DNA from: a virus | Direction: 5' to 3' (one strand) | IMG/VR virus record: IMGVR_UViG_3300037827_000187 | Location: 1-64,000 of that record | DNA: 64,000 nt | Shown: positions 47,137-63,302 of the stretch, in pieces | Numbering within the stretch: the first letter of the stretch is position 1 | Layout: every line of letters starts with the position of its first letter | The notes under the pieces: model-generated | Databases searched by the model: none | Told to the model about the DNA's origin: nothing | The model's input: only the letters and a program-made list of their open reading frames with translations | Translations under genes and position numbers: made by a program

Positions 47137-47163
47137 TGGATATTGGCAGAAAGGGGAACCACA

Positions 47164-47331: not shown

Positions 47332-47333
47332 TT

Positions 47334-49240: not shown

Positions 49241-49250
49241 CTCTCCAAGC

Positions 49251-49270
49251 GGACCCCATTTTTAGCGAGG
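49251..49270 (-). repeat. Dispersed CCTCGC-AAAA-TGGGG element, copy 11 (doubles as a ribosome binding site)
   Basis: Minus-strand CCTCGC-TAAAAA-TGGGGTCC. On the plus strand its GCGAGGAG is the Shine-Dalgarno sequence of the gene at 49279. Confidence 0.75.
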
Positions 49271-49278
49271 AGAGTGGT

Positions 49279-49602: not shown

Positions 49603-49763
49603 TGAAAGCCAAGATTGAGAAGCTGAGTCGCAAAGCGCACGAGCTGAAGAAATCACGAGCGGGCCACGAGGAGTGGGAGATTCGCAAGCGCTTCAAGCGC
49701 AAGGGGCAGATGTGGGTTTGGGAAGATCAAACAATGCAGAAAGGGACATGGGTGAAAATATGA
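49602..49763 (+). CDS. Small basic protein
   Basis: 53 aa, TGATG overlap with the previous stop and GGAGGGGAG upstream. Lys/Arg-rich (EKLSRKAHELKKSRAGHEEW), with a QMWVWEDQTMQKG end. Likely nucleic-acid or membrane-associated. Confidence 0.6.
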   Translation: MKAKIEKLSRKAHELKKSRAGHEEWEIRKRFKRKGQMWVWEDQTMQKGTWVKI

Positions 49764-50017
49764 GCCGATGCATCCGTAATGGCGTTGTATTCAAGCGACA
49801 CAACCGAACCAAGAGCAAAGATGGTTCTTGGCAGCCTTGCATTCATTGTGGTCAACCCGAAGCGCCACAAGCGACGGAGGTCCAAGATGACCAGGGAACA
49901 AGCAGCAATATTGAAGCGGCAAACTTTGCGATACCAGTTGGAACAGAGGCAGATCAAGAGTTCTTCGAGTCCTCTGAGTACACAGGGGCCGAAGTCAACA
50001 CGGGTGTCACGGAGTGA
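49760..50017 (+). CDS. Small hypothetical protein with one CxxC
   Basis: 85 aa from ATG 49760 (ATGA overlap). Basic N-terminal half with QPCIHCGQPEAP, acidic disordered C-terminus (TEADQEFFESSEYTGAEV). Confidence 0.55.
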   Translation: MSRCIRNGVVFKRHNRTKSKDGSWQPCIHCGQPEAPQATEVQDDQGTSSNIEAANFAIPVGTEADQEFFESSEYTGAEVNTGVTE

Positions 50018-50026
50018 TGCTCACCT

Positions 50027-50042
50027 AGGAGCCGTGGCTCCT
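50027..50042 (+). terminator. Possible terminator hairpin
   Basis: AGGAGC-CGTG-GCTCCT, 6-bp stem, then TTGAATTTGTG, ten bases after the previous stop. The U-run is weak. The next 210 bases hold no convincing gene but several GC-rich inverted segments (CCGGAG, CCCGGAG). Confidence 0.5.
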
Positions 50043-50252
50043 TGAATTTGTGTCCCGGAGTTCACGACCCTCCAAAGGTACGTGGGCTTGGCTAGGGCCA
50101 AAAGGACCCCGGAGTACATACGACCCATTGAGTTGGGCTGCTCCGGGAGTCCGCTACATTCGTCGCGGCTGATTCGTGACGGACTGCTTTTGGACGTTGA
50201 AGTAGCTGCAACCTGGGTCTTCGTCAGTCCGGGAAGAAAATGTCCCAAAAAT

Positions 50253-50474
50253 ATGGAACAACTCTATCTAAGTCGGCGTAACCTCCTCACACTGTTGAGC
50301 AAGCTTGATCGAGTCAAGCGTGGCGAGGGTAGTATGTGCACACTCGTCAAGCAGGATCTTACACATCCCAAGTATCCAGCCTCAGTCGTGGTTCGATTGA
50401 CAGCCGTAGAGGATGAGGATTATTACACAGACAGGCTTGCTGGACAGGTACATCCTGCTGATGAGCCTCGATGA
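50253..50474 (+). CDS. Small conserved-looking phage protein
   Basis: 73 aa from ATG 50253. MEQLYLSRRNLLTLLSKLDR then CTLVKQDLTHPKYP and VEDEDYYTDRLAGQVHPAD look like a small phage protein with conserved Tyr and acidic residues. An upstream GTG (50082) would add an unconvincing N-terminus. Function unknown. Confidence 0.62.
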   Translation: MEQLYLSRRNLLTLLSKLDRVKRGEGSMCTLVKQDLTHPKYPASVVVRLTAVEDEDYYTDRLAGQVHPADEPR

Positions 50475-50623
50475 TTCCCACTCGACACATCATCAAGGTG
50501 GCAGATAAACGGTATATGGTGACTGAGGGGAATCAGATTTGGTATTTTGAAGTAATACGAAGTGAGGAAGAAGCGGAGCCTGAAGCGCCTGTTGTAGTAC
50601 CAGAAGGGCATTTTGACAATTAA
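50471..50623 (+). CDS. 50-residue hypothetical protein
   Basis: Coupled by an ATGA overlap to the previous gene. MIPTRHIIKVADKRYMV then a beta strand (NQIWYFEVIRSEEEAE) and an acidic Pro/Val-rich tail. A short single-domain protein just upstream of the amidoligase locus. Confidence 0.5.
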   Translation: MIPTRHIIKVADKRYMVTEGNQIWYFEVIRSEEEAEPEAPVVVPEGHFDN

Positions 50624-50627
50624 TATT

Positions 50628-50647
50628 CCTCGCTCAAAACGGGGTTA
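50628..50647 (+). repeat. Dispersed CCTCGC-AAAA-CGGGG element, copy 12
   Basis: CCTCGC-TCAAAA-CGGGGTTAGATA four bases after a stop codon, in the sense direction, 40 bases before the first amidoligase gene. Confidence 0.85.
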
Positions 50648-50687
50648 GATAGCCTCCCTCAAACATCCATCGTGAGATGGAGGCTGC

Positions 50688-52019
50688 ATGGAATTACCAC
50701 TGCGTAGAATTGTACCGGGGAGTGTGGTAAAACTCCCCGTTGATCTCATTCAACAGGCAGGCGGAGCCGAACTAGGGATCTTCATGGGGGCTGAGTATAC
50801 TGATCAGCCTACAAAGACTGTATTTCCCTATGTTGAGGCCCTGGTGGGGCAAACATTCCAAATGAATGCTCTGCCTGAGAGACCTGAGGCTGAAGGATGG
50901 GAAGTTGTAGAGGATCCAATAGTTCTGGGGAATTTTGCGAAGCGAGAGCTGTGGATTCCCCACCTGGATGTAATGTCAGGGACGGATCCTGAAATATTCT
51001 GCACGAATCATGGTGGGGATATTGTGCTTCCAGCGTGGAAGTATCTCCAATCAGAGGCAGAGTGCGAGACTTGGTATAGCAGCCTTGATGAGGCTGATCC
51101 AAAGAGATTCTGGGATGGTGTGCAGGCGGAATGGTGCCCACCGGCTAGCCGAGTTATAGGGAAGGTGTTGGAAGGTATTCACAATGGGATGCGGCAGATA
51201 AGGATTGCGGCCCGTAGGGTTGATCCTGATGCTCAGTTGAGCATTAGTTCAACTGTGGAGTTGACAGAGGACCAAGTTAAGCGGGCTAGCCCTGCTCATC
51301 TGGCTTTCCGATGCAGCCCTAGCATGAATGTTTATGAGGATCAAGGGTTTGATCCACCGAATCCAATTGAATTCAGAGAACGCTACGCGGGAGGACATCT
51401 GCATGGAGGAATCACCCGAAGATTTACGGCGCCGGTTATCGGAGAGATTGTCAAGGCTTTTGATGGAGTTATTGGCGTTGCAGGGGTTAGCCTTGCAGCC
51501 GGGATGGACGATCCGAGACGCCGCCGTTACTATGGGCGTGCGGGAGAATTCAGATTACCATCCCACGGTATCGAATACCGTGTCCTTTCTAATTTCTGGC
51601 TCTGTAGTCCGGCGATCACAGAGTTAGTAATGAGTCTGTTTCGTCAGGTAATGAGCTTTGGGGCCTCCGGGCTTTATCGAGTAGCATGGAAAGCGGATCA
51701 AGAACGAGTCCGCGAGGTCATAAACAATTGCGACGTAGATCAAGCACGAGCAATGCTCGCAGAAAACCGCGCAAGTCTAGCCGTGCTCATCAAAAAGTGC
51801 GGGTGGACACCAGAGGCAAGCGCGTTCGCGCTAGAAACGCTGTTAAACGGCGTAGCGTATGCAGTAAAAAATCCCGCCGACCTAATGAAAAACTGGCATC
51901 TGGAGGACAATCAGTGGGAAAAATACGGAAAGCACTCGGGGGGTGGGTGGGAGAGTCATATATCCAGCCAGTTGTACCCTGCCCACTCTGCCACGGAACA
52001 GGCTGGGAAGTTAGTTTAA
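50688..52019 (+). CDS. COOH-NH2 ligase (phiEco32-type amidoligase), copy 1
   Basis: 443 aa. Predicted to join a carboxylate to an amine using ATP, with the glutamine-synthetase-like fold of the amidoligase superfamily. Visible pattern: SGTDPEIF, DGVQAEWCPP, the GGHLHGG metal/substrate motif, and IEYRVLSNFWLCSP, in the same order as the two other copies (56034, 61183). The N-terminal 95 residues are specific to this copy. ATG 50688 has GGAGG upstream. The zinc-finger gene that follows starts 106 bases inside this gene. Substrate unknown: peptide, cell-wall or protein tail modification are all possible. Confidence 0.85.
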   Translation: MELPLRRIVPGSVVKLPVDLIQQAGGAELGIFMGAEYTDQPTKTVFPYVEALVGQTFQMNALPERPEAEGWEVVEDPIVLGNFAKRELWIPHLDVMSGTDPEIFCTNHGGDIVLPAWKYLQSEAECETWYSSLDEADPKRFWDGVQAEWCPPASRVIGKVLEGIHNGMRQIRIAARRVDPDAQLSISSTVELTEDQVKRASPAHLAFRCSPSMNVYEDQGFDPPNPIEFRERYAGGHLHGGITRRFTAPVIGEIVKAFDGVIGVAGVSLAAGMDDPRRRRYYGRAGEFRLPSHGIEYRVLSNFWLCSPAITELVMSLFRQVMSFGASGLYRVAWKADQERVREVINNCDVDQARAMLAENRASLAVLIKKCGWTPEASAFALETLLNGVAYAVKNPADLMKNWHLEDNQWEKYGKHSGGGWESHISSQLYPAHSATEQAGKLV

Positions 52020-52357
52020 CGGGGGCCATGAGGCCTGGATCAAGGGCGCGCCTGCGTGATATGTGCATGCTTTGTGAGGGGCGGCGTGTAGTCCCGCAAG
52101 AGGTGTGCAGAGGATGTGGACGACCAGCTTGGGTCCAAACTCCAATCATCTCATTTTGTGGTGAGGATACTTGCCTACAAAAGTTGATCGAATTCATTAA
52201 TCCCAAAAAGGTCAAGATGATTGACATTGTGGAGAAGAACAAGAGCCGCTTTGAGAAGATGAAAGGCGGAGCTGAACAACAGGTATTTGACATCGTCGCT
52301 GCGGCCCGGAGATTGGGTCCTGATGATGAGGAAGATTTCACGAGGTATTGCTGCTGA
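51914..52357 (+). CDS. Zinc-finger protein with DnaJ-like CxxC pairs
   Basis: 147 aa from GTG 51914, chosen because GGAGG lies seven bases upstream. CPLCHGTGW, CMLCEGRR, CRGCGRP and FCGEDTC give four pairs, of which the first has the DnaJ-type CxxCxGxG pattern. A charged helical C-terminus (DIVEKNKSRFEKMKGGAEQQ) follows. Overlaps the ligase gene by 106 bases. May bring a partner or RNA to the amidoligase; inference. Confidence 0.7.
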   Translation: MGKIRKALGGWVGESYIQPVVPCPLCHGTGWEVSLTGAMRPGSRARLRDMCMLCEGRRVVPQEVCRGCGRPAWVQTPIISFCGEDTCLQKLIEFINPKKVKMIDIVEKNKSRFEKMKGGAEQQVFDIVAAARRLGPDDEEDFTRYCC

Positions 52358-52455
52358 TGGCACATTTACTTGACATTGGATTATTTATCCTTTTGGCGGG
52401 CGCCGGTGCTGTCTTGATTGCAATAGCGTATCGGATCGCGACGGACTGGGATTAA
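52357..52455 (+). CDS. 32-residue single-span membrane peptide
   Basis: TGATG overlap with the zinc-finger gene. MAHLLDIGLF then a hydrophobic run (ILLAGAGAVLIAIAY) and a short polar RIATDWD end: one membrane helix. Lies inside the amidoligase locus and resembles the 29-aa membrane peptide at 58627 in layout, so both are candidate substrates or partners of the ligases. Confidence 0.55.
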   Translation: MAHLLDIGLFILLAGAGAVLIAIAYRIATDWD

Positions 52456-52609
52456 CACAAGTTCTTCGTCCGGTTTCAGCAACCACACGAAACGGGCTTT
52501 GCTTATGCTCACGAGGAACCTATTGCGGCTCGGAGGGCCGGAGGGGATAGCCCCTTGGATAGGCGCTTTGTTTGCATCGGTTAGTTCTTAAGGAAGCGGT
52601 TGGAAGATT

Positions 52610-52714
52610 GTGGCCTCTGTGGGCGAGGCAGATGAGCGGCTATTGACGCAGGTGGAACTCCTGGTTGAGTCGTTGCTCCCAAGATACGCAGGCCAACAAA
52701 CCTCCGGGTTTTAG
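52610..52714 (+). CDS. 34-residue hypothetical peptide
   Basis: GTG 52610, preceded by GGAAG, to TAG 52714. MASVGEADERLLTQVELLVE then SLLPRYAGQQTSGF; acidic helix. Evidence is only the frame and the ribosome site. The preceding 150 bases contain no clear gene. Confidence 0.3.
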   Translation: MASVGEADERLLTQVELLVESLLPRYAGQQTSGF

Positions 52715-52860
52715 TGCGGCGTTCTTGCGAGCTTCTTGTCCGGCCTCCCGATAGTAAAACATGTCACAAAGCTAGCCGGGGAATTAGGTCTCTAATTGAG
52801 GCGGAGATTTGCACACGTGTTGGCAATACTGAAACCGGATGGAGGAATAAGGAGGGCAGG

Positions 52861-53028
52861 ATGGAAAGCGCAGATTTACGGGAGGTAGCGCTACGACTCG
52901 CGGAGCGAGGCAAAAGTTTCTTCGGTAACAAGTTGGAGGAGCATGAAATACCCAAAAAGGATTATCCGCCGAGTTATCGTTTTGATGGAGGATGGCCTGG
53001 ATATCCTCGATCGAGCGACCGACAATAA
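52861..53028 (+). CDS. Small hypothetical protein
   Basis: 55 aa from ATG 52861, preceded by AAGGAGGGCAGG. Helical basic-acidic N-terminus (MESADLREVALRLAERGKSF), tail Pro/Gly-rich. The next gene starts 86 bases before its end, so the tail may overlap two frames. Confidence 0.5.
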   Translation: MESADLREVALRLAERGKSFFGNKLEEHEIPKKDYPPSYRFDGGWPGYPRSSDRQ

Positions 53029-53122
53029 CTTTTTAACCAAAAAGCAGATCCTGGAGTTGGAAAAGGGATACGACTGTCTCTTGGAGGCTCAGATTCTGCT
53101 CAAGGAGGGCAGGAAGAAATGA
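52943..53122 (+). CDS. 59-residue hypothetical protein
   Basis: ATG 52943 with TTGGAGGAGC upstream; ends in an ATGA overlap with the next gene. Charged and helical (YPKRIIRRVIVLMEDGLDI, KKQILELEKGYDCLLEAQ). Overlaps the previous frame by 86 bases. Confidence 0.6.
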   Translation: MKYPKRIIRRVIVLMEDGLDILDRATDNNFLTKKQILELEKGYDCLLEAQILLKEGRKK

Positions 53123-53466
53123 ATTACGGTGGATTAGGATGCTGCGGGGTTGGTAGTGTGATGGGGTTCCCCTATGACACGATGGTGGGGAATGGTACTG
53201 ACTATGAAGCCAAGCGCCTGGAGGATCTGGAGGCGGCGCTAAAGAAGCCTGCAATTGGTGACGAGATTTATGCAATCCCCAAGCTCGGTGCCCAGCTCGC
53301 CGTCGTGACAGCGGAGCAAAGCCGAGCCAAGGCCATCCTCATCAAGTATGGCTTCAAAGAGGTGGCGAAGTTCAAATCCACCCACGGGAATGGCAAGGAT
53401 CTTTTCCTCCTGGTAAGGGGGGACACCGTGGAGAAGATCATCAAGAAGAAAAAGAAGGTGCTTTGA
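53119..53466 (+). CDS. CC-motif family protein, member 1
   Basis: 115 aa. Begins with GLGCCGVGSVMGFPYDT, ends with a QSRAKAILIKYGFKEVAKF and KDLFLLVRG pattern that recurs in the next two genes. A 3-alpha/beta-type small fold is likely; the CC and Asp-Thr could be a metal or redox site. Function unknown. ATGA/TGATG links couple the three genes. Confidence 0.65.
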   Translation: MNYGGLGCCGVGSVMGFPYDTMVGNGTDYEAKRLEDLEAALKKPAIGDEIYAIPKLGAQLAVVTAEQSRAKAILIKYGFKEVAKFKSTHGNGKDLFLLVRGDTVEKIIKKKKKVL

Positions 53467-53828
53467 TGGAGACGACTGTCTTTCCGAGATGTTGTGCGCT
53501 CAATATCCTCTCGGGGTTTCCGGCCGATACGTCTATATCCCTGGATGAGTTGTTGGCGCAAATACCCCAGAAAATCAAGGACCATGAAACCGGAGTCTAC
53601 GGGGTGGGTTATTGTGCCCTATCGGGCTACTCACCATATATCCGGGCGCACGTGCTTGCTGTTTCGGGGAAACAGCTCAAAGCCAAGGCGAAGTTGGAGA
53701 CCCTGGGATACAGGCTTCTTGGAAGCTGTTTGAGTGCCCACTCATCCAAGGATCCTTACAGTCTTGGCTATTACCGAATTTATCTCATGGGAAAGGGTTT
53801 TGACCTTCCCGGAATGGAGCCCAAATGA
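53466..53828 (+). CDS. CC-motif family protein, member 2
   Basis: 120 aa from ATG 53466. RCCALNILSGFPADT is the family N-motif; the C-motif is LKAKAKLETLGYRLLG and YYRIYLMGKG. Probably a diverged tandem duplicate of member 1. Confidence 0.65.
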   Translation: METTVFPRCCALNILSGFPADTSISLDELLAQIPQKIKDHETGVYGVGYCALSGYSPYIRAHVLAVSGKQLKAKAKLETLGYRLLGSCLSAHSSKDPYSLGYYRIYLMGKGFDLPGMEPK

Positions 53829-54100
53829 CATCACGAAAATTCATGATGTGTTGTTCAGCGGCGGAGTTGGGAGGTTTGTGGATGGACACCAGTGTCCAGG
53901 GTATCTTGGACACACTGATGCCCAACAAGCTCTTGCATATTGCAACCGTAGTCCCCAAGGTACAAGCAGCGGCATTTGATCATTTGAAAGGCGCTGGATT
54001 CAAGAGCGTCGGAACATATAAGGGCCGCGACGGACGAGTCCATCTTATGGTAAAGGGTTTGACCAAGCACAACGCTCGGTCAAAACAAGAAGCCCAGTAG
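53825..54100 (+). CDS. CC-motif family protein, member 3
   Basis: 91 aa from ATG 53825 (ATGA overlap). MCCSAAELGGLWMDT and VQAAAFDHLKGAGFKSVG, VHLMVKG are the family motifs. Slightly shorter in the centre. Confidence 0.65.
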   Translation: MTSRKFMMCCSAAELGGLWMDTSVQGILDTLMPNKLLHIATVVPKVQAAAFDHLKGAGFKSVGTYKGRDGRVHLMVKGLTKHNARSKQEAQ

Positions 54101-54111
54101 TAAGGGGCTTC
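54089..54111 (+). terminator. Possible terminator at the end of the CC-motif genes
   Basis: GAAGCCC and GGGCTTC form a 7-bp stem with a 9-base loop that includes the stop codon of member 3, followed by ATTTCG. Weak U-tract. Confidence 0.4.
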
Positions 54112-54407
54112 ATTTCGAGCAGCGAAGTGACACCACACAAGTTTGATGCGCAAACGCGCTCCTTGTCCAATGCCACCTCAAAGTAACACTGCGAGATAGT
54201 GCGTTAGGTGAGCGCTCCTTCGGGGGCCTGTGCCGTAGTGGGAAGAGGCTACAGGATCGGATTTCACTAGTGGTCCCGTCTTGTATGTTCGCACGAAAAG
54301 CTCAACTTTCCCACGATACCCCAAGCGCCTGAGGCATGTTCAGGCTTTAGGGCTTGGTCCAAGGCAGGACGGGGGAAACCCCGTCCTTCTGGTTCCCAGG
54401 AGGGGAC
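54112..54407 (+). ncRNA. Candidate structured RNA or long 5' leader
   Basis: No gene in 296 bases. Visible nested pairings: GCGC-AAAC-GCGC near 54146, CCTGTGCC with GGC-T-ACAGG around 54230, CAAGC enclosing GCCTGA-TCAGGC and closing with GCTTG near 54320-54355, and a perfect 9-bp stem AGGACGGGG-GAAA-CCCCGTCCT (54366-54387) 20 bases before the next ATG. Could be a regulatory leader or a phage ncRNA. Confidence 0.45.
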
Positions 54408-55163
54408 ATGAACGTACCACTTTGGGTACTGAAAGCTTCGTTTAGACCCTATGGGTCAAAGATGCCAGAGAGACCCGTGACATTGAATCCTTATGCGCCG
54501 GTGCATGGCTATGGGTCGGTGTGGCATCCCGAATCACTGTGTGCACAGTGCGCCCTGTCTATCAAGGGGACAGATTGGGTGTTTAGGAGTGGAAGTTACG
54601 TGCACAGGTTGTGTGAGACAGACTTTGTAAACAAGTCATCTATCAAGCTGGGGCCAAGCACGCTTGAGTCTCCCAGACGTAGCCGTCGAAGGGCCGGGTT
54701 TCACAAACAATCCGATGAGCCTGATCCTATACCGGATGGCAATTTGGGGGATTCAGAGTATCGGTTCTGGATTGGCACCGAGCAAAATCCCTCAATGTTC
54801 GCAATGTGCCGGGCCTGTCGGTGCTCAGTTTATGGGGAGAAGGACCGGAATGAACACAAGAAAGATGCTCGATATTGGGTGGGCAGTGATGCCTGCACTC
54901 AACAACTCATCGAGGTTTATCGACGCTTGCTAGGCAAGAAAGAGTGTGTGATTTGTCACAAGCATACTACATGGAAGAAATGGGGAGTGCCAATCTGTGG
55001 CAAGGAGTGTGAGCGCGCATGGAAGTTCAGTCAAGTGTGGCACACAGCGGTGAAGGACACCCTGGACGAGGTTCGGAGGAAGCTGTACGCGGAAGTGGCC
55101 ACGAATCTAAAGTCTGGTGGCTCCGAAACTTCGGAATCCATGTCAATTCTACCCCCCGATTAA
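54408..55163 (+). CDS. Zinc-binding protein of the amidoligase locus
   Basis: 251 aa from ATG 54408, AGGAGGGGAC directly upstream. Cys pairs: LCAQCALSIKG, FAMCRACRCSVYG, CVICHKHTTW and ICGKECERAW, i.e. several treble-clef-like zinc knuckles. A basic linker (RSRRRAGFHK) separates them. It may be a nucleic-acid or peptide-substrate binding protein. The following frame starts inside its 3' part. Confidence 0.65.
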   Translation: MNVPLWVLKASFRPYGSKMPERPVTLNPYAPVHGYGSVWHPESLCAQCALSIKGTDWVFRSGSYVHRLCETDFVNKSSIKLGPSTLESPRRSRRRAGFHKQSDEPDPIPDGNLGDSEYRFWIGTEQNPSMFAMCRACRCSVYGEKDRNEHKKDARYWVGSDACTQQLIEVYRRLLGKKECVICHKHTTWKKWGVPICGKECERAWKFSQVWHTAVKDTLDEVRRKLYAEVATNLKSGGSETSESMSILPPD

Positions 55164-55300
55164 CATTGTATGGTTGGGTGTCTTTGCCAGAATGGGAAGT
55201 TTGGATTATGAAAGAGGGTAAGCCGGTTAGAACACTTTCTTATGATCCAAATCTAGCCAAGGTGTGGGAGTTGCTTGTGGAAGTGGTGGATGCCCAGTGA
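55019..55300 (+). CDS. Small hypothetical protein, start uncertain
   Basis: 93 aa if ATG 55019 (AAGGAG 11 bases upstream) is used, which would overlap the zinc protein by 145 bases; the convincing part (LTLYGWVSLPEWEVWIMKEG, KVWELLVEVVDAQ) lies after 55166, where a TTG could start a 44-aa version. Ends in a GTGA overlap with the next gene. Confidence 0.45.
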   Translation: MEVQSSVAHSGEGHPGRGSEEAVRGSGHESKVWWLRNFGIHVNSTPRLTLYGWVSLPEWEVWIMKEGKPVRTLSYDPNLAKVWELLVEVVDAQ

Positions 55301-55824
55301 AGAACTTCGGAGAGTTTCGGAAGATGGCGAATGATTATCTACCAGAAAAGTTGTTTTCACCAAAGCCATTTCCTGGCCCGTATCCTACGAGGTGGGTTGT
55401 TGGATTGAATCATCGAATCCCAAGGACTGATAGAGATGAGACGTTCAGTTACTTTGGCAGGCCTTGCAAGCAGGTTGTCCAACACATACAACCCTTTTTT
55501 GCATATGATGCTTATCTTATCTGGACAGAGTTTGACCAGAATGGCGTGATTCAAAAGATTGACTGCGCGCTTCCCTTGATGGATTGTTATCCGGTGGCCC
55601 GGTATTGGCAGCCAGAGGGAATTCAATACTATTATCCCTTCAGTCAAGGACTGACCTTGGCAGAGATATGGCTTCGCGAAGTAGTATCCACGCGGATGAT
55701 TGTTAAACCACGGGCCTATACCTGTTATATGCCGTTTGCGCACAAAGAGGGGGTACAGACGGCATATAATCTAGTGAAAGGACACGAAGAATGGCTTCAA
55801 AAGGCAAACATTCAATACAAGTGA
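55297..55824 (+). CDS. Hypothetical protein of the amidoligase locus
   Basis: 175 aa from GTG 55297 (GTGA overlap), or ATG 55324. Aromatic-rich (NDYLPEKLFSPKPFPGPYPT, PFFAYDAYLIWTEFDQNGV, IQYYYPFSQGLTLAEIWL). A compact alpha/beta protein, not recognised. Confidence 0.65.
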   Translation: MKNFGEFRKMANDYLPEKLFSPKPFPGPYPTRWVVGLNHRIPRTDRDETFSYFGRPCKQVVQHIQPFFAYDAYLIWTEFDQNGVIQKIDCALPLMDCYPVARYWQPEGIQYYYPFSQGLTLAEIWLREVVSTRMIVKPRAYTCYMPFAHKEGVQTAYNLVKGHEEWLQKANIQYK

Positions 55825-56033
55825 TTGACTTCGGGAAGCTGAAGCCTCCTGTGAGCAAGGCTGCGCGTTATAAAGCAAAGTGCGTCAATTGTGGCCGGAA
55901 TCACTATGAGAGCGTGCCATTTTATGGCTTTGTGTGCAAGCCTTGTGGATTCGAGAATGATGGGATCTATTCTGTGGCCGTCCCAACTCAAGCAAGGCCA
56001 GGATATCCGATCAAACCGGCAGATGAATTCTAA
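55791..56033 (+). CDS. Small zinc-ribbon protein
   Basis: 80 aa; KCVNCGRNHYES and FVCKPCGFEND form a two-knuckle zinc ribbon. Overlaps the preceding gene by 34 bases and abuts the second amidoligase gene. Confidence 0.65.
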   Translation: MASKGKHSIQVIDFGKLKPPVSKAARYKAKCVNCGRNHYESVPFYGFVCKPCGFENDGIYSVAVPTQARPGYPIKPADEF

Positions 56034-57566
56034 ATGAGTGAATGGATCACAAAACGAGAGGCTTTTTATCGGATGGCTATCCAGCAGGGATTGGCCGGGT
56101 CAGAGCAGCTTGATACGGTGTTTCCCCTGGGATATAATGTCCCAGAGCTACGCCTGCGTAAGTGGCTACGACGCTTGATCTGTTCGCCATCGCATCTGCT
56201 TAATGGGCGAAGGATCGTGAATAGATTCAAACTGGGGGCAGATCCGGAGTTCATTTTTACTTATCAAGGGGCACGAGTTAATGCCTCAGGGTTGAATCTT
56301 AAGCAAGGGCAAGCTTTTGGGGCAGATAACAATGGGCGCCTGACAGAGATTCGACCGTATCCTTCAAGGAGTTCTCTTGATGTAGTGGCCTCAGTTCTGG
56401 ACACATTGAGGTGGATGGTCATCCTGAAGCCCAAGACAAAGGATCTAGCTTGGGAATCAGGAGCCTTTCTTCAAGACGATGGCTTAGGAGGCCATGTTCA
56501 CTTTGGACGCAAGAGACCACACCGAGATCAAGAAATTACCGCCCTTGATTGCATTGAGGAACTGCTGTTATCTCTCGGGGCCTATCCAATCAACGATGTT
56601 ATCCGACGCCGACGCGGAGATGCTCATCGACAAATATATGGTGCTCTCCACGACTTTAGGCTCCAGGCCCATGGTTATGAATACAGGACTTTTCCCAGTT
56701 GGCTGGACAGCCCCGAACTGGCGTTCATGACCATTACGTTTGCGAAGCTGGCGGTGCAGAACCCTCTGATTTGTCAAGGGATGCAAGTTTCCACCCAGGC
56801 TGTGCTAAATCTTCAAAAGTTGAAGAATCTCCTGGCTTATTATCGAGACATTGACAATGATGCTCGGTTGCTCCTCATCATGCTCAATCAAGGATTGTTC
56901 CCTCAACACATTGGAGGGGATTTTCGAGGACGATGGGGCATACCAGTAATGGTGGAAGTTGCCAAAGAACACGGAGTAAGCGTGATCCCTCCGGCGATTA
57001 AGCCAAGGCCGGAGACAATCAAGGAACTGACGGAGCATTTCGCCTTTGGGAAACCTTTGGGATTTTCAGGCAAGATGACTCCAACATGGATGCCTTATAC
57101 TATTCCACCTGGCTACACCATGTGCATAAATAATGTTGTGACGGATCAAGCAAAGGGATTTGGGGAGTTGATTTGGGATCTGTGTGTATCAAAGAACTTC
57201 ACGATTAACTTCACAGCCGGAGGGGGGCGAGACATTGAAGCGCCAGGACGAGGGGGCATTACTGTCGCGAGCAATATTGCCAAGCTGTTGCCTGAGGGAT
57301 GGCAACGAACATTGCACGGCGTGAAGATTGGAAAGCAACGGGATAACAGCATTGCGCTGGCCGCGTCCACGCGAGAAGGACCTCAGGCCCGGTTAACGAA
57401 GGATATATTGACCAGCGGGGCTTTCCCGATATGGCGGGCCAAGGATCTTCAACCGGATTCCTATGAGCAGTGGGCCAAGCACGCAAAGCCTGCCTCAACA
57501 AAGAAACCTGCGGCATCGAGAAGCAAGTTGTTGTATAATACCAGCCCGATTCCGGGTATGGTCTGA
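56034..57566 (+). CDS. COOH-NH2 ligase (phiEco32-type amidoligase), copy 2
   Basis: 510 aa. LGADPEFIFTYQG, NNGRLTEIRPYPS, GGHVHFGR and GYEYRTFPSWLDSPEL reproduce the family order (DPE, E-R-P, GGH-x-H, EYR-SWL-P). The C-terminal 200 residues include an additional PETIKELTEHFAF and GGGRDIEAPGRGG segment. Directly upstream of the glutamine amidotransferase gene, so the amine donor may be glutamine-derived ammonia. ATG follows the previous stop without a gap. Confidence 0.85.
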   Translation: MSEWITKREAFYRMAIQQGLAGSEQLDTVFPLGYNVPELRLRKWLRRLICSPSHLLNGRRIVNRFKLGADPEFIFTYQGARVNASGLNLKQGQAFGADNNGRLTEIRPYPSRSSLDVVASVLDTLRWMVILKPKTKDLAWESGAFLQDDGLGGHVHFGRKRPHRDQEITALDCIEELLLSLGAYPINDVIRRRRGDAHRQIYGALHDFRLQAHGYEYRTFPSWLDSPELAFMTITFAKLAVQNPLICQGMQVSTQAVLNLQKLKNLLAYYRDIDNDARLLLIMLNQGLFPQHIGGDFRGRWGIPVMVEVAKEHGVSVIPPAIKPRPETIKELTEHFAFGKPLGFSGKMTPTWMPYTIPPGYTMCINNVVTDQAKGFGELIWDLCVSKNFTINFTAGGGRDIEAPGRGGITVASNIAKLLPEGWQRTLHGVKIGKQRDNSIALAASTREGPQARLTKDILTSGAFPIWRAKDLQPDSYEQWAKHAKPASTKKPAASRSKLLYNTSPIPGMV

Positions 57567-57599
57567 GAGAAAGTCCTGGGATGCCAGGAAGGAGCTGAC

Positions 57600-58598
57600 A
57601 TGTGTGGAATATGCGGCATCAGGCGCTTCGGCCCTGAGCCTATTACTCCGGATCAGATTAATATCATGCTGATCCAGAATGAAAAACGTGGTATGCAAGC
57701 CACCGGAGTTGCCCTCCAACAGGCGGATGGGTCAATTCAAGTTTGGAAGAAGGATGAGCCTGCCTGGAGGTTTGTTACACTGCCGGGATTCAAGGAGTTC
57801 ATTGCGGCGAACTTGCATCCTGAGACCCTTACATTCATTGGGCATACGAGGGCCGCAACGAAAGGACTGCCGTGTTTCGACAAAAACAACCATCCGATGT
57901 GGCACGGCGAGACAGCGATGGTCCACAACGGAGTGATTCACAACGACGACGACCTGTTCAAGGAGTTCAAGCTGGAGCGGAGTGCCGAGACCGACTCCGA
58001 CATCATCCGCGCGATCTTGGATTGGAAGGGGTTCACGCGAGAGGGTCTCACTACCTTGAACCGAATCCGTGGGAGTGCAGCGTTTGCCGCAATTTCCACA
58101 AAGTTCCCTGGAAAACTCGTTCTAGCGAGGAGCGGTTCTCCCCTTCAGTTAGCTGCGACTAAGAATCAGCTCCTCTGGAGTAGTGAACGGGAGCCAATCT
58201 TCCACGCCCTGCGGGACTATGAAAAGAAGTTCGGCGTCTGGATGCGGCGAAACCTCGTGGAATGTGATATGATGCCGATGAACAATGATTCGGCATATAT
58301 ATTCACAGATCGGCCCGAAGCCGAGGACGGTGTGGAATTTTATCCCGAAGATCCCTCCACCGGAAACTGGATGGAATGGCACCAAGAGTTCAAGAGTGCC
58401 ATGACCTATACCACCCCGACCTACCGTCCCCACGAGACCTACAATGTCACAAGGATCAAGAACTACGGGGAGACGAAGATTGATATTATTCTTTGCCCCA
58501 ATACAAAGTGCCGGGCTTGGCTGCCGGTTACTCCGGCCCAATTACAGAACCTGAAGACCGTCCGATGCGGGCAGTGCAAAGGGAAGTTGGCTGCATAG
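57600..58598 (+). CDS. Class II glutamine amidotransferase with C-terminal zinc ribbon
   Basis: 332 aa. Nucleophile Cys2 (MCGICGIRRFG), GMQATGVALQ, GHTRAATKG, HNGVIHND and AETDSDII are the conserved segments of Ntn-type glutaminase domains as in GlmS and asparagine synthetase. It releases ammonia from glutamine, here probably for the neighbouring ligases. The last 50 residues add a zinc ribbon (LCPNTKCRAW and VRCGQCKGK). GGAAGGAG precedes the ATG. Confidence 0.93.
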   Translation: MCGICGIRRFGPEPITPDQINIMLIQNEKRGMQATGVALQQADGSIQVWKKDEPAWRFVTLPGFKEFIAANLHPETLTFIGHTRAATKGLPCFDKNNHPMWHGETAMVHNGVIHNDDDLFKEFKLERSAETDSDIIRAILDWKGFTREGLTTLNRIRGSAAFAAISTKFPGKLVLARSGSPLQLAATKNQLLWSSEREPIFHALRDYEKKFGVWMRRNLVECDMMPMNNDSAYIFTDRPEAEDGVEFYPEDPSTGNWMEWHQEFKSAMTYTTPTYRPHETYNVTRIKNYGETKIDIILCPNTKCRAWLPVTPAQLQNLKTVRCGQCKGKLAA

Positions 58599-58626
58599 AT
58601 CCTAGGCGCCGATCACAGGAGGGCCT

Positions 58627-58716
58627 ATGGACTGGTTCCAGTTGAGAAACACGATCATAGCACTCGTGGTGTTGGGGGCGATAATAGAAGTGAGACGAAG
58701 ACGGAGGATGATGTGA
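58627..58716 (+). CDS. 29-residue membrane peptide with Arg-rich tail
   Basis: ATG 58627 with CAGGAGGGCCT upstream; ends by overlapping the ATP-grasp start (GTGA). MDWFQLRNTIIALVVLGAI is a membrane helix, followed by EVRRRRRMM. Its place between the amidotransferase and ATP-grasp genes makes it a candidate substrate or anchor for the amide-forming enzymes (inference). Confidence 0.6.
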   Translation: MDWFQLRNTIIALVVLGAIIEVRRRRRMM

Positions 58717-59453
58717 TTGAGCTAAGGGCAAACAAGGGGCCAACAGGTCGTCTGTTGAGGCAGTTGTTGCAGCAAAAGGGGCTGCTGGCGCGGCCAGGCC
58801 AAGCCCGAGGGGTAGTCAACTATGGACACGGGGGCGGAAGCGAGCTTCCCACACTAAATGCACGCGCGGGGACATTCAACAAATATGTCGAACTTCAAAG
58901 GCTTCATGAAAAAGGGGTCCAGACGGTGCCATTTGCCCGTACTCGGGCGGAGCTTAATGGCGTGGCGCTTGCTCGTCGTATTCACCATACACGGGGAACG
59001 GATATTGTCGTTGTGCGGGATGGCCAAGCGCATCGTGGTGGTGATTTTTACACTTCGTTGATTCCCAAGAGGAGGGAGTTCAGGGTGTGGGGCTTCCGGC
59101 GAAAGCCAATTGCCTGCTACGAGAAGGTCTTGACTTATGCACGGAAGCTTGGACTAAGAGGGAGAAGCCGTGAAATTTGGAACTGGCGAAACGGATACGC
59201 GTATAATTTTCTCCATCCTGATGGAGTACCCGCCGCCCTCAAGGCCTTGGGTGCTCAAGCCGTCGACGCATTGGGCCTGGACTTTGGGGCGGTTGACATT
59301 ATCGAAGGAGAAGGGGGACGTTTATACGTTCTGGAAGTTAATACTGCGCCTGGGGTCGAAGGGCCACGATGGGGACTCACCAGCCTTGTGAACCACATAG
59401 CACTGTGGGCCGCAGGCGGATACAAACGGCGCAACGGAGAGGCTAAAGCATGA
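58713..59453 (+). CDS. ATP-grasp ligase (RimK/YheC-like)
   Basis: 246 aa from GTG 58713. The fold signatures are HHTRGTDIVVVRDGQAHRGG and FYTSLIPKRREFRVWGF (lysine/arginine ATP-binding region) and DFGAVDIIEGEG then LYVLEVNTAPGVEG (the Mg-binding Asp-Glu-Asn set). ATP-grasp enzymes ligate a carboxylate to an amine or thiol through an acyl phosphate. With the amidotransferase and COOH-NH2 ligases it matches the predicted phage peptide-modification gene set of phiEco32. Confidence 0.88.
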   Translation: MIELRANKGPTGRLLRQLLQQKGLLARPGQARGVVNYGHGGGSELPTLNARAGTFNKYVELQRLHEKGVQTVPFARTRAELNGVALARRIHHTRGTDIVVVRDGQAHRGGDFYTSLIPKRREFRVWGFRRKPIACYEKVLTYARKLGLRGRSREIWNWRNGYAYNFLHPDGVPAALKALGAQAVDALGLDFGAVDIIEGEGGRLYVLEVNTAPGVEGPRWGLTSLVNHIALWAAGGYKRRNGEAKA

Positions 59454-59980
59454 GTACCAAGGTGCGAGTGATTCTTCAACATGATGGGCATTATGTTGAG
59501 GGTCAAAGGGCGATACGGCAGCTCCGGAAGTGCGATGGTTTGTGGGGGAAGAAGATTGATCCCACGCTCAAGGGTCCGGCACGAATTATAGCCCTTTTTG
59601 AAAACCTTCGAGGGGGTTATCATAGAGATGAACTGTGGATCCTAAGAGAACCCCGCAAAATGCCTCGGAAGAAAAGCAAATATATTGGATTTGCTCGGTA
59701 TGCGGGGATTGGCAAAAAGATCTATTCCAAGAAAGACACACTTAAAGCGGAGGCCCAAATAAGAGCCGTCGCAAGGAGAATCCATGGTAGACGTGTCCAA
59801 CCTGCCCGTGCAAGGCAACTCGCGGGTCGTCTCAACTTCCCCCCCAGGGGAAGAGTGCCGTTGCAATTTGATGACCTTGCCCCACTTCAAGCACCAATGC
59901 CAGCCGCGCCAGGACAAATGCGGTGGCACGTTGTCCAAGACGTGCCCAGGGACTTCATTCGTCAAAGAGACGAAGGATAG
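59450..59980 (+). CDS. Basic hypothetical protein
   Basis: 176 aa, ATGA overlap with the ATP-grasp gene. Basic N-terminal two-thirds (KKIYSKKDTLKAEAQIRAVA, RRIHGRRVQPARARQLAGRL). The C-terminal third shares DNA with a gene in another frame (59784). May bind the peptide substrate or nucleic acid; unproven. Confidence 0.6.
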   Translation: MSTKVRVILQHDGHYVEGQRAIRQLRKCDGLWGKKIDPTLKGPARIIALFENLRGGYHRDELWILREPRKMPRKKSKYIGFARYAGIGKKIYSKKDTLKAEAQIRAVARRIHGRRVQPARARQLAGRLNFPPRGRVPLQFDDLAPLQAPMPAAPGQMRWHVVQDVPRDFIRQRDEG

Positions 59981-60188
59981 AGGTACAGGATGGTTCTGCG
60001 GGCATCATCTTCGATATATATTCCCGATGTGGGTTCTTATTGATGGAGTCCCGGTGGCCACCTGCGATGATTGTTTTCTCGACGACCTTTGGAACCAGAA
60101 TATGGTTCTGGGAGACACGGAGGATATCCCTAGTGTGGAAATGGATGACATCATTAGTGAAGCGCCCCTTGATACCTCAGGAGTTTGA
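59784..60188 (+). CDS. Cys-rich hypothetical protein, overlapping frame
   Basis: 134 aa from ATG 59784, preceded by AAGGAGAATCC. ECRCN, HQCQPRQDKCGG, KTCPG, WFCGHHL and ATCDDC are candidate zinc ligands. Overlaps the previous gene by 197 bases; one of the two may be shorter than given. Confidence 0.55.
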   Translation: MVDVSNLPVQGNSRVVSTSPPGEECRCNLMTLPHFKHQCQPRQDKCGGTLSKTCPGTSFVKETKDRGTGWFCGHHLRYIFPMWVLIDGVPVATCDDCFLDDLWNQNMVLGDTEDIPSVEMDDIISEAPLDTSGV

Positions 60189-60603
60189 TTTCACTCGTGC
60201 AGCTTATCAGTATTATTGCACTTTCCTGCACGGGACGATTCACTCTGCGGTGTTCCAGGGGCAGTGTAATCCTGTGCCCCGACAAGGGAGCACGATCTTC
60301 GTCTCTCTAAACAATGGCCGCGTGGGACGATATTATCTGTACTATGTGAATCCCCTGCGAGATTATAGCTATGGCTTTCGGGCTATAGGAGATTTCCAAG
60401 GCTACAAGGAGGACTATGCCGATCGAGTGGGAGACTTTAAAAAGAAAGCTGATGCTCCCTTTGGGCAAGGTGCGCCATTACCAAGAGGAGGCGCGACGAC
60501 GCATGATATTGACGCTTGGGGGCTACGATCCGGTGACCGTCCGGTTTCTGTGTTACAGGGCAGGCCTGCTCTCCGAACAGACTCTAACTGGCTCATTCTC
60601 TAA
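60157..60603 (+). CDS. Hypothetical aromatic-rich protein
   Basis: 148 aa from GTG 60157. FDFTRAAYQYYCTFLHGTIH and RVGRYYLYYVNPLRDYSYGF look like a folded beta-rich domain. The last 60 residues (GQGAPLPRGGATTHDIDAWG) lie where another, better-supported frame starts, and may be spurious. Confidence 0.5.
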   Translation: MKRPLIPQEFDFTRAAYQYYCTFLHGTIHSAVFQGQCNPVPRQGSTIFVSLNNGRVGRYYLYYVNPLRDYSYGFRAIGDFQGYKEDYADRVGDFKKKADAPFGQGAPLPRGGATTHDIDAWGLRSGDRPVSVLQGRPALRTDSNWLIL

Positions 60604-60838
60604 AGAGATGAAGCCCCTGGTGAGGGGCTCGATTAAAGCAGTAAGGGTGGCGATTGCCAAACTCAATGACCCAAGCTCAGTCACTAAACGAAGCATACAA
60701 GAGATGGAAGAACGCATCAAATGGCGAAGCCGAGAACCTGTTGTCATTGCTTGTGAAATCGTTGGAGAAGCTCGCCCTGTCCATTTGTTGGCGCAAGATT
60801 CCGGATCTGCGGAGCGAGTTCCCGTGGGTGGTCAATGA
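60416..60838 (+). CDS. Basic helical hypothetical protein
   Basis: 140 aa. AAGGAGGACT directly before ATG 60416 is one of the best ribosome sites here. Helical basic protein (YQEEARRRMILTLGGYDPVT, EMKPLVRGSIKAVRVAIAKL). Its last 58 residues overlap the sigma-factor gene. Might be an anti-sigma or DNA-binding protein; no proof. Confidence 0.55.
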   Translation: MPIEWETLKRKLMLPLGKVRHYQEEARRRMILTLGGYDPVTVRFLCYRAGLLSEQTLTGSFSKEMKPLVRGSIKAVRVAIAKLNDPSSVTKRSIQEMEERIKWRSREPVVIACEIVGEARPVHLLAQDSGSAERVPVGGQ

Positions 60839-61193
60839 AGCAACGTGGAGGGCGATCAGTGGTGAAGGCAAATTCGGAGGCAAGAGTCAGTTTTCGGTCT
60901 GGTTCTATCGGATCGTGGTCAATGAGTGTAACCGACTTCTTAAGCGCACACAGAAACTTCGGGAAACAACTGTCGGGTTGGACGACATACCCTTATTTGG
61001 AAAATCTAAGACTGATCGCGGTGACGCATTACAGGGAGTCTTACAAGGAATCGGTTGGCCGGATCAAACCCTCATTGCGTTAAAGGCGGAGGGCTGGAGC
61101 ACCCGTGAAATCGCCGGGATGCTGGATACAAGCGAAGCTGCTGTTAAGATGCGCTGGAGTCGGTTGAAGGGGAGATTAAGAGATGCCGGATAG
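60666..61193 (+). CDS. ECF-type RNA polymerase sigma factor
   Basis: 175 aa from ATG 60666. Region 2-like segment FSVWFYRIVVNECNRLLKR corresponds to the FxxWLxxIAxNxxxDxxR signature of ECF sigma region 2.4; region 4-like helix-turn-helix EGWSTREIAGMLDTSEAAVK then MRWSRLKGRLR is clear. It would redirect host RNA polymerase to phage promoters; the five GTTAC-N16-GGTCTAA sites are the natural targets (inference). phiEco32 also encodes an ECF sigma, a further parallel. Starts within the previous frame. Confidence 0.87.
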   Translation: MTQAQSLNEAYKRWKNASNGEAENLLSLLVKSLEKLALSICWRKIPDLRSEFPWVVNEATWRAISGEGKFGGKSQFSVWFYRIVVNECNRLLKRTQKLRETTVGLDDIPLFGKSKTDRGDALQGVLQGIGWPDQTLIALKAEGWSTREIAGMLDTSEAAVKMRWSRLKGRLRDAG

Positions 61194-62196
61194 CTTTTTT
61201 AATCCGTTTGATGGGCTGGCCGCGCAACAAGGGCAACAACAGGCTGCTCAACAACAACAAGTCTTTTATTCATCGCCGATACAGCAGGCGATGAGCGAGT
61301 TATTTAGCCACGGGAGTTTTGTCTACAAACCGACGCCCTTGACTCCTGAGCAAGAAGTTCAACGAGCCCGGCGCAACGAGGCCTTCTATCGAATGGCCCG
61401 GCTCGAAAGAGAGCGTGAAGTAGAACAAGAAAAGATCGAAGAAGCGGAGGAAGGTGTGGTTCTCAATACATTTTTAATTGGATGTGATCCGGAGTTTGTT
61501 GCACTCGATGGAGCTAATCATGTCATTAATGTAGGGCATACGTTGCAGCACATCGGAGAAATAGGCTGGGATCACAGCGGAAATGTCATCGAAGTGAGGC
61601 CCAAGCCTGCCAAGGGGGCATTTGCCCTGGTAAGAAGGATGCAGAAGCTACTAAAGGATCCCCGACTGGAAGGCCTTGGATGCGCCAAGCTCCGAGCGGG
61701 AGCTTATGTACCGCCCTATTTACTTGGGGGGCATATTCACATTGGGGGTGTGTGTTCACGAGATCAAGAACATCTCAATCGCATTACCGCCATGGATGCC
61801 GTCACCCGGCTTCTCGAACACCTTGACATTCTACCAACAAAAGAGTGTATCGAACGCCGCAAGAAAGGCGCGGACGCTGGCTACGGGAAGTTTGGCGCGG
61901 TCCGGTATAAGGCCGATGGCCACTTTGAATATCGAACCATGGCTAGCTGGCTGCATGATCCGCGCGTGGCCTATATATGCTTGACTGCGGCCAAGCTTGC
62001 GGCGGTGGCGCCAATCGAAACGAGAACTGCCCTCGAAAAGGCTACAAGCTTCGCGGCTTTGCAAACATGGGCCGAGAATTACAAGAAGGATGACAACGTC
62101 AAGAGGATGCTGCGTTTGTTTGAAAAGGGCCATCGGAGCTTGGTTAAAGATCCCGATGTGGACTTTCGAGGACGATGGGAGACCTTAGGACTATGA
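61183..62196 (+). CDS. COOH-NH2 ligase (phiEco32-type amidoligase), copy 3
   Basis: 337 aa, the smallest copy. A Gln-rich N-terminal tail (AAQQGQQQAAQQQQ) and a charged helix precede IGCDPEFVALDG, SGNVIEVRPKP, LLGGHIHIGGV and GHFEYRTMASWLHDPRV, the family pattern. Overlaps the sigma gene by 11 bases, so both are co-transcribed. AGGGGAGA precedes the ATG. Confidence 0.85.
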   Translation: MPDSFFNPFDGLAAQQGQQQAAQQQQVFYSSPIQQAMSELFSHGSFVYKPTPLTPEQEVQRARRNEAFYRMARLEREREVEQEKIEEAEEGVVLNTFLIGCDPEFVALDGANHVINVGHTLQHIGEIGWDHSGNVIEVRPKPAKGAFALVRRMQKLLKDPRLEGLGCAKLRAGAYVPPYLLGGHIHIGGVCSRDQEHLNRITAMDAVTRLLEHLDILPTKECIERRKKGADAGYGKFGAVRYKADGHFEYRTMASWLHDPRVAYICLTAAKLAAVAPIETRTALEKATSFAALQTWAENYKKDDNVKRMLRLFEKGHRSLVKDPDVDFRGRWETLGL

Positions 62197-62474
62197 CAGC
62201 GCATGTTGCAATGGTACTCAAGGATCTGGCAGTTGCCTCCAGTTGTCTTAGTTCAGCAGGGGCGGGGTTCTTAGCGCGTACTTTGTATGAGAAAGAGCAT
62301 CCCCGTGAGCACGATCATGTTTTGCATGGCTGTGAAGGCTGCCATGCTATGTTTCAAGACGGGATGCATCTAGGAATGCAACGTATGCCACGAGCTCAGG
62401 AAGCCGAACGCCTTCAATATCGACTCAACATCATCCAAGGCGTCCTCGATCGGCTTCACGTAGAGGTCAAATGA
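62193..62474 (+). CDS. Small Cys/His-containing protein
   Basis: 93 aa from ATG 62193 (ATGA overlap); ATG 62175 is possible. HGCEGCHAMFQDGMHLG provides C-x2-C-H and histidines; a helical C-terminus (EAERLQYRLNIIQGVLDRLH) follows. Function unknown. Confidence 0.6.
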   Translation: MTAHVAMVLKDLAVASSCLSSAGAGFLARTLYEKEHPREHDHVLHGCEGCHAMFQDGMHLGMQRMPRAQEAERLQYRLNIIQGVLDRLHVEVK

Positions 62475-62764
62475 GCCGACGCAGATTGAGTGCTAACCAG
62501 ATCCGTAGGCGACACGAAAGAATGTGTCGATGGAAGGTTAAGTTTGAGAGTGAGGCGCTGGCGCAGATTGCCTTGGCAGATGCTCCCAATTGGAGCACCC
62601 CGGAGAGGCTGACTAATCTTGGGCTTTATATATGCACGGCATGTGGATACATTCACATCGGGCATCAACCTAAATGGACTAAGACTAACGGGCCTGTTGT
62701 AAGCGGACCCCGTTTTGAAGCGAGGAATGAAATACAACCACCTCCTATTCAACCGGTGTCATGA
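62471..62764 (+). CDS. Small zinc-binding-like protein
   Basis: 97 aa. Basic N-terminus (SRRRLSANQIRRRHERMCRW) then a helix and YICTACGYIHIGHQPKW, a plausible C-x2-C-H-H site. Contains dispersed repeat copy 13 near its end, which encodes VSGPRFEARN. ATGA overlap with the previous gene. Confidence 0.65.
   Translation: MSRRRLSANQIRRRHERMCRWKVKFESEALAQIALADAPNWSTPERLTNLGLYICTACGYIHIGHQPKWTKTNGPVVSGPRFEARNEIQPPPIQPVS
62705..62725 (-). repeat. Dispersed CCTCGC-AAAA-CGGGG element, copy 13 (inside a gene, antisense)
   Basis: Minus-strand CCTCGC-TTCAAAA-CGGGGTCC, antisense to the 97-aa gene. Confidence 0.8.
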
Positions 62765-62802
62765 CACTGTATGACCTAACCCCTTTAAATACATACATAT
62801 AT

Positions 62803-62859
62803 AAATGTCTCTCTTTTATCCTCTGGATCTAGGGTATATTGGGGAGAGCAGAGACATTT
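62803..62859. promoter_or_regulatory. 57-bp inverted-repeat element covering a start codon (copy 2)
   Basis: AAATGTCTCT (62803) and AGAGACATTT (ending 62859) form a 10-bp inverted repeat around 37 bases in an AT-rich intergenic stretch (ATACATACATATATAAATG). Same arms and nearly the same size as the element at 45797. The ATG at 62805 lies in the left arm. Confidence 0.6.
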
Positions 62860-63005
62860 TTAAACCCCTCATTCAGAAGGACTTACAAAGGAATGTCACG
62901 ATCCAAGAATTAATCCACGAAGTGTTACCAAATCCCGCCTACCGAGGTCTAAACATACGAGATGCAAAGTCTCCATATTCGACACGGCCAAGCCGTGACC
63001 ATTGA
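62805..63005 (+). CDS. Doubtful 66-codon open frame
   Basis: MSLFYPLDLGYIGESRDIFK begins like the 70-aa frame at 45797 (MSLSSTPIY), and both start in an inverted-repeat arm. No Shine-Dalgarno. A promoter-like motif lies within it at 62924, and the well-supported next gene starts inside its 3' end, so coding is uncertain. Confidence 0.3.
   Translation: MSLFYPLDLGYIGESRDIFKPLIQKDLQRNVTIQELIHEVLPNPAYRGLNIRDAKSPYSTRPSRDH
62924..62954 (+). promoter_or_regulatory. Putative phage promoter, GTTAC-N16-AGGTCTAAAC (copy E)
   Basis: GTTACC, 16-base spacing, then AGGTCTAAAC; the ATG at 62962 follows 7 bases later. The only copy with a final C instead of T. It would drive the 93-aa gene and the nuclease. 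Confidence 0.68.
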
Positions 63006-63243
63006 TTGGCTCGACTCCAAGGCCCTGGGAGGATGGCAGCGACAGACATTCACCACGCCTGGGACCGTCCGTAGCCTTGGATATGTGGTGGCCACGGATG
63101 ATGTGGCCATTGCCATAACAACCAGCATAGAAGAGACAGGGTGCCATTATGATCCTCTTAGTATACCGTGGGGGTGCATTACTCGGATCGATATCATGTC
63201 CGAAGATTATTCCAGAGAAGGCCCCGCAGAGCCCCTCGCCTAA
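62962..63243 (+). CDS. Small conserved-looking phage protein
   Basis: 93 aa. VTIDWLDSKALGGWQRQ, GYVVATDDVAIAITTS, SIPWGCITRIDIMSE resemble the pattern of a widespread small phage protein (W-x-D-S, then a second strand set, then IP-x-x-x-I). Predicted leaderless start. The stop codon lies inside dispersed repeat copy 14. Confidence 0.65.
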   Translation: MQSLHIRHGQAVTIDWLDSKALGGWQRQTFTTPGTVRSLGYVVATDDVAIAITTSIEETGCHYDPLSIPWGCITRIDIMSEDYSREGPAEPLA

Positions 63244-63253
63244 AAACGGGGTC
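63234..63253 (+). repeat. Dispersed CCTCGC-AAAA-CGGGG element, copy 14
   Basis: CCTCGC-CTAAAAA-CGGGGTC overlapping the stop codon of the preceding gene, sense direction. Confidence 0.8.
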
Positions 63254-63302
63254 CAGTCCGATGGTGACATGGGAGGACTTGGGGGAAAGCCAATGAGAAG
63301 CA

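Follow-up and report, generated by a model that had tools for sequence, protein, structure and literature searches.

The window analyzed here is the whole stretch of 64,000 nucleotides at positions 1 to 64,000 of the IMG/VR record IMGVR_UViG_3300037827_000187, and it covers most of this 66,025-base record of an uncultured virus. The record encodes an A-family DNA polymerase, a portal/head-tail adaptor, a major head protein and a terminase, with the structural genes on the minus strand, and from this gene content we take it to be a podovirus. Between positions 50,688 and 62,196, among small plus-strand genes in a region of the kind that is typical for early phage genes, lies a predicted amide-bond-forming cassette that contains three COOH-NH2 ligases, a glutamine amidotransferase and an ATP-grasp ligase, the latter two placed between the second and third ligases. 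These five enzymes are:

LIG1, 50688..52019, plus strand: 443 amino acids; PF14395 COOH-NH2 ligase, the counterpart of the phiEco32/LUZ24 ligase (PHROG 3815, 3e-29).
LIG2, 56034..57566, plus strand: 510 amino acids; PF14395 ligase from a separate clade; ~200 amino acids at the C-terminus form a conserved extension.
LIG3, 61183..62196, plus strand: 337 amino acids; third PF14395 ligase, of the sister clade of LIG2.
GAT, 57600..58598, plus strand: class II glutamine amidotransferase; a glutaminase domain and a C-terminal zinc ribbon, without a synthetase domain.
GRASP, 58713..59453, plus strand: RimK/LysX/ArgX-like ATP-grasp ligase, by profile and predicted fold.

An initial annotation, made from the letters alone, had placed COOH-NH2 ligases at 50688, 56034 and 61183, and all three are intact open reading frames (ORFs) that exceed the curated Pfam cut-off of 25 bits for PF14395 (LIG1, 38.5 bits, E = 1e-9; LIG2, 82.7 bits, E = 3e-23; LIG3, 86.9 bits, E = 2e-24). 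Judged by these profile scores, the membership of each protein in the family is far beyond chance, and a six-frame search of all 66,025 bases recovers exactly these three PF14395 ligases. The motifs that the annotation had described as common to them are shared in part: DPE, GGHxH and EYR are present in LIG1, LIG2 and LIG3, whereas the extended (Y/F)EYRTxxSW form is confined to LIG2 and LIG3, and LIG1 has IEYRVLSNFW instead. Likewise, LIG2 and LIG3 carry an E-R-P motif and LIG1 carries AEW. The LIG2 and LIG3 cores are homologous, with 33% identity in the BLAST match.

The catalytic carboxylates and histidines are present in the three ligases and conserved in alignments of 11 sequences each. 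In LIG2, residues D70, E72, D98, E105, H154, H156, R192, R209, E216 and R218 are invariant; the equivalent residues are all kept in LIG1, and in LIG3 they are kept except for H186, which is found in 10 of the 11 sequences. Outside the catalytic core, the C-terminal part of LIG2 (approximately residues 305-485) is also conserved. One LIG2 relative (L052:4640-6202; records related to the window are given L numbers) departs from this pattern, as its open frame of 521 codons has the DPE and GGHxH motifs replaced and appears to encode a pseudoenzyme that keeps the C-terminal part. This sequence, which comes from a metagenome assembly and is to be confirmed, suggests that the C-terminal part or a structural role may be kept without catalysis. 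It is therefore conceivable that LIG2 and LIG3 act chiefly as structural partners of LIG1 and not as separate enzymes, a reading that is consistent with the intact ORF of the L052 protein and with the conservation of the extension outside the core. We nevertheless regard it as very improbable, given that all 11 aligned LIG2 sequences keep the catalytic residues unchanged and that LIG3 loses a single histidine in a single member.

The initial annotation had assigned the ligases to the GCS/amidoligase fold, and this assignment holds, by structural model for LIG2 and by profile homology for LIG1 and LIG3. An AF2 model of LIG2 (pLDDT 83.8, pTM 0.87) matches YbdK-type ligases (1e-5), the Pup ligase PafA (1.6e-4), a bifunctional glutathione synthetase, GCS and many glutamine synthetases in the PDB, and among viral models it matches the CW02 COOH-NH2 ligase (4e-7) and amidoligases. 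From its modeled likeness to this superfamily, LIG2 would be expected to carry out ATP-dependent carboxylate-amine chemistry, although it is only 10-15% identical to YbdK, GCS, glutamine synthetase (GS) and PafA, belongs to a different family and has the extra C-terminal extension. Profile-profile comparisons relate LIG1 to the canonical phage ligases (99.9%, E = 3e-34) and LIG2 to LIG3 (100%, E = 1e-42); LIG2 is related to the canonical ligases at 3e-8. The same division is seen in a tree built by a quick method with SH-aLRT support values, in which LIG1 and the canonical phage ligases split from LIG2 and LIG3 with a support of 100, and in which the LIG3 (95) and LIG2 (87) proteins of the virus family each form a clade. 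The clade that contains LIG2 and LIG3 was not found among 50,697 phage records, while a LIG1-like ligase is present in 291 phage records. LIG2 or LIG3 as a disguised PF12224 amidoligase was ruled out, as neither has a profile match to PF12224 proteins.

The class II amidotransferase and ATP-grasp ligase that had been read alongside the ligases are both borne out by profile, and the latter also by fold. GAT has a GATase_6 match in Pfam (1e-16), and its family profile matches the GlmS glutaminase at 1.6e-23. Its conserved residues (the N-terminal Cys2, R84, N110-G111, D134 and four cysteines) include those shared with the GlmS-type class II glutaminase domain, but GAT lacks the sugar isomerase domain and ends in a zinc ribbon. 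GRASP is matched weakly by Pfam (0.02), more strongly by PHROG 2599 (2e-20) and, as a family profile, by RimK (6e-13); a tblastn comparison with the phiEco32 ATP-grasp protein gives 33.5%. Its AF2 model (pLDDT 92) retrieves ArgX (8e-12) and RimK (3.5e-11) in Foldseek, as well as LysX, D-Ala-D-Ala ligase and PsnB. In fold and profile GRASP thus resembles the RimK, LysX/ArgX and graspetide (PsnB) ATP-grasp ligases; it is shorter than these enzymes and is known here without a carrier or precursor peptide.

Several smaller genes are interspersed with the enzymes, of which four are considered below:

ZR1, 51940..52357, plus strand: small zinc-finger protein with conserved cysteine pairs; present in 18 of 20 records; the start is approximate, as the mechanical ORF starts at 51686, inside LIG1 in another frame.
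ZR2, 54354..55163, plus strand: protein carrying two motifs that resemble zinc fingers (CxxC..H..C and CxxC..C..C), a short distance upstream of LIG2; present in 20 of 20 records.
Small zinc-ribbon protein, 55791..56033, plus strand: directly upstream of LIG2; CxxC pairs and weak Pfam/NCBIfam zinc-ribbon matches.
SIG, 60654..61193, plus strand: sigma-70-like factor of the extracytoplasmic function (ECF) type, its gene runs into the start of LIG3; 18 of 20 records carry a relative.

The cassette is conserved in other virus records. Neither a DNA-level search of positions 40000-64000 against the 50,697 phage records nor scans of IMG/VR with the single LIG1, LIG2 or LIG3 protein returned a relative; those in IMG/VR were reached with an alignment of LIG2 and LIG3, and more with family alignments. 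In the resulting 20 distinct virus records (the window and 19 others) the order LIG1 - ZR2 - LIG2 - GAT - GRASP is kept, and each of these five genes is present in all 20, the LIG1 of L052 lying outside the fetched stretch and being found in the whole record. LIG3 is present in 15 of the records, usually beside the sigma-factor gene, and the other five (L034, L035, L036, L037 and L041) have two PF14395 ligases only. Since the related proteins are only ~24-62% identical to those of the window, the conservation is old and selected. The three ligases are orthologous groups of long standing, each conserved separately and kept in the same order; recent tandem duplication was ruled out by the tree and by the gene order. 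The suggestion in the initial annotation that three divergent copies reflect three steps or three substrates is thereby supported indirectly. No relatives of LIG2 were found in bacterial and archaeal genomes, and this search therefore gives no clue to the host.

Related gene sets occur elsewhere. A 97-kb phage record (L060:7842-17960) brings together a gamma-glutamyl cyclotransferase (GGCT), a ligase of the LIG3 type, a PF12224 amidoligase, GAT and GRASP, and because the LIG3-type enzyme there stands alongside PF12224, GAT, GRASP and GGCT, the ligases look like exchangeable parts attached to a shared core. Three phage records of 137-210 kb (L064, L066 and L067) have one PF14395 ligase and GAT in the fetched stretch, with GRASP in L066 and L067, and are possibly minimal versions of the module.

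About half of the relatives have GGCT, in most cases located between LIG1 and ZR2. At this position the window has three adjacent small genes (53119-54100) that are weakly alike. The occurrence of GGCT fits gamma-glutamyl chemistry and raises an alternative in which the cassette serves metabolite recycling or a small-molecule pathway, with GAT acting as a gamma-glutamyl hydrolase comparable to EgtC of ergothioneine synthesis and with the ligases making gamma-glutamyl compounds. GAT does lack a synthetase domain and has a weak EgtC match (9e-6), but its match to the GlmS glutaminase is much stronger (6e-23, in addition to the family-profile match above), and simple recycling needs less than three ligases and an ATP-grasp enzyme; we consider this alternative unlikely.

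We favor, at a probability of about 0.72, the reading that this early-region cassette makes several amide bonds during infection and is a divergent member of the phiEco32/LUZ24 type; the figure refers to the machinery and not to the acceptor. Sequence and fold establish three ligases of the GS/GCS fold, a glutaminase and a RimK-like ligase, in a fixed order in 20 records. The chemistry of GS, GCS, RimK and GlmS comprises acyl-phosphate formation, amide synthesis and ammonia release, and the cassette would combine these into a stepwise, ATP-dependent synthesis of amides that draws ammonia from glutamine. As members of their families, LIG1, LIG2 and LIG3 would activate a carboxylate with ATP as an acyl phosphate and join it to an amine, GAT would take ammonia from glutamine and supply it to one of the ligases, yielding a terminal or side-chain amide, and GRASP would couple an amino acid to a carboxylate in the way that RimK modifies ribosomal protein S6. 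From its position, LIG2 may carry out the step that belongs to the PF12224 amidoligase of the known cassette, and one further step would be contributed by LIG3 in most of the virus family.

The acceptor is the least certain part of the scheme; it may be a glutamate-containing peptidoglycan precursor, as published work proposes, with the benefit of excluding other phages, or it may be a protein. In the former case, the glutamate-containing stem peptide of cytoplasmic wall precursors would be amidated and extended, and the altered surface would block later phages. This proposal has been made in print (PMC5498523, PMC10580990), and GRASP matches D-Ala-D-Ala ligases, if less well than RimK. The published argument is drawn from comparative genomics only, and the set conserved in the 20 records contains no recognizable wall-binding or transport gene, so that we hold peptidoglycan as a tentative possibility.

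In the latter case, the substrate of GRASP would be a protein of the host or the phage, perhaps a conserved zinc-finger protein, to which it would attach glutamate or a different amino acid, and LIG1-3 and GAT would extend the chain or cap it. The nearest matches of GRASP are RimK and ArgX/LysX, which use protein-borne carboxylates, and the best in the PDB is ArgX in complex with the zinc-ribbon carrier LysW; PafA is among the fold matches of LIG2, and ZR2 accompanies the enzymes in every record. Other points count against this reading: the zinc-finger proteins scanned have no match to the LysW family in Pfam or NCBIfam, and LysW was rejected as the carrier; alignments of ZR1 and ZR2 reveal no conserved C-terminal glutamate tail as in LysW-type carriers; and small molecules are also substrates of RimK-like folds. 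A protein acceptor is accordingly regarded as rather doubtful. In a more elaborate version, which we think quite improbable, ZR2 or ZR1 would serve as a carrier or adaptor for protein-tethered, template-independent peptide assembly, with GRASP and the three GS-fold ligases successively building and amidating the peptide. Modification of DNA bases was judged unlikely, as no nucleotide-modifying enzyme was found among the genes scanned in a search that was not exhaustive.

Several observations weigh against the amide-synthesis cassette as we read it. The L052 protein would mean that LIG2 catalysis is dispensable in some members. The Foldseek TM-scores of the LIG2 model are low (0.2-0.3 over the whole query), probably because the core alone aligns, yet the E-values and the matches taken together agree with one another. 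The pathway may also differ from the known one: the search for PF12224 that the initial annotation had proposed detected no such amidoligase in the record or its close relatives, with positive controls matched; a profile of the ~200-amino-acid companion protein of the canonical cassette finds all eight controls and not the window; and the 66,025-base record, which may be incomplete, contains no GGCT.

The remaining small genes add detail to the locus. ZR1 is DnaJ zinc-finger-like by Pfam (6e-5, below cut-off), no relatives of the zinc-ribbon protein at 55791..56033 were detected by BLAST, and ZR2 was ruled out as the canonical ~200-amino-acid companion, to which it is not homologous. SIG scores slightly under the cut-off of TIGR02937 (41.0 bits against 42.9; 1.5e-10). 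Sigma-70-type promoter-like sites in positions 46000-64000 are rarer than in shuffled sequences (5 versus 15.6, standard deviation 3.8), which may fit with a sigma factor encoded by the phage. The zinc ribbons described by the initial annotation are present; the tiny membrane peptides that it listed with them correspond to two plausible ORFs (52348-52455 and 58627-58716), but neither is conserved at those places in the relatives, and they were ruled out as parts of the module. Just upstream of the cassette lie a small hydrophobic protein with a DUF5317 match (49279-49602; 4e-11) and an ORF (50082-50474) with 60% identity to an ORF of L017, far above other genes common to both records, which suggests a recent exchange. 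Downstream, a small protein (62962-63243) is kept in 16 of the 20 records. Three large proteins of 1861, 778 and 1074 amino acids, encoded on the minus strand of the structural region (26879-37910), have no PHROG match.

Discussion of the phiEco32-type cassette, which is widespread among phages, dates back to 2009; PMC5498523 cites Iyer 2009 and Hardies 2013 for it. That study of Pseudoalteromonas phages describes a 'peptidoglycan modification cassette' capable of forming three unusual linkages, with a proposed superinfection block, and PMC10580990 repeats the proposal. The LUZ24-like phage UFV-P2 has the same enzymes (PMC3890496), and mass spectrometry of phage SU10 detected the ATP-grasp enzyme, GAT and the GGCT-like YtfP as early gene products (PMC4281155). 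The initial annotation had called this modification system established; it stands as a published inference, and no biochemical test of the cassette and no report of its product were found in the literature. If its product were found, this would account for something in which phages commonly invest early in infection. Although the central idea is an old one, the question becomes easier to test with ligases that can be exchanged, a third ligase and a constant zinc-finger partner. The virus family of the window keeps a core of LIG1, GAT and the RimK-like ATP-grasp ligase and swaps or adds other ligases, which distinguishes indispensable from exchangeable parts and provides a natural setting in which to test 'one ligase, one bond'; it also names two zinc-finger proteins, ZR1 and ZR2, as candidate partners.

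Judged from its genes, the cassette of the window is an undescribed three-ligase variant of this published system. It shares with the phiEco32/LUZ24/RIO-1-type cassette a PF14395 ligase orthologous to LIG1, a class II amidotransferase and a RimK-like ATP-grasp ligase, as well as a location in the early region near replication genes of a podovirus. The link drawn by the initial annotation is therefore upheld for these three enzymes, with the correction that PF12224 is absent and a second PF14395 clade stands in its place. In KBNP1711, Bjorn, an Alcaligenes phage and phiEco32, the order is a PF14395 ligase, the ~200-amino-acid protein, a PF12224 amidoligase, GAT and the ATP-grasp ligase, with GGCT nearby in KBNP1711, phiEco32 and Bjorn, while CVT22, KZY1 and VpJYP1 have the same enzymes arranged otherwise. 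Thus, the phiEco32-type cassette contains one PF14395 ligase and one PF12224 amidoligase, whereas in the window LIG2 occupies the PF12224 place before GAT, and GAT has 332 amino acids as compared to 470-677 in the canonical phages examined. Beyond LIG1, the window has two further PF14395 ligases of a separate clade, LIG2 and LIG3, and its module also includes ZR1, ZR2 and a sigma-like gene of the ECF type.

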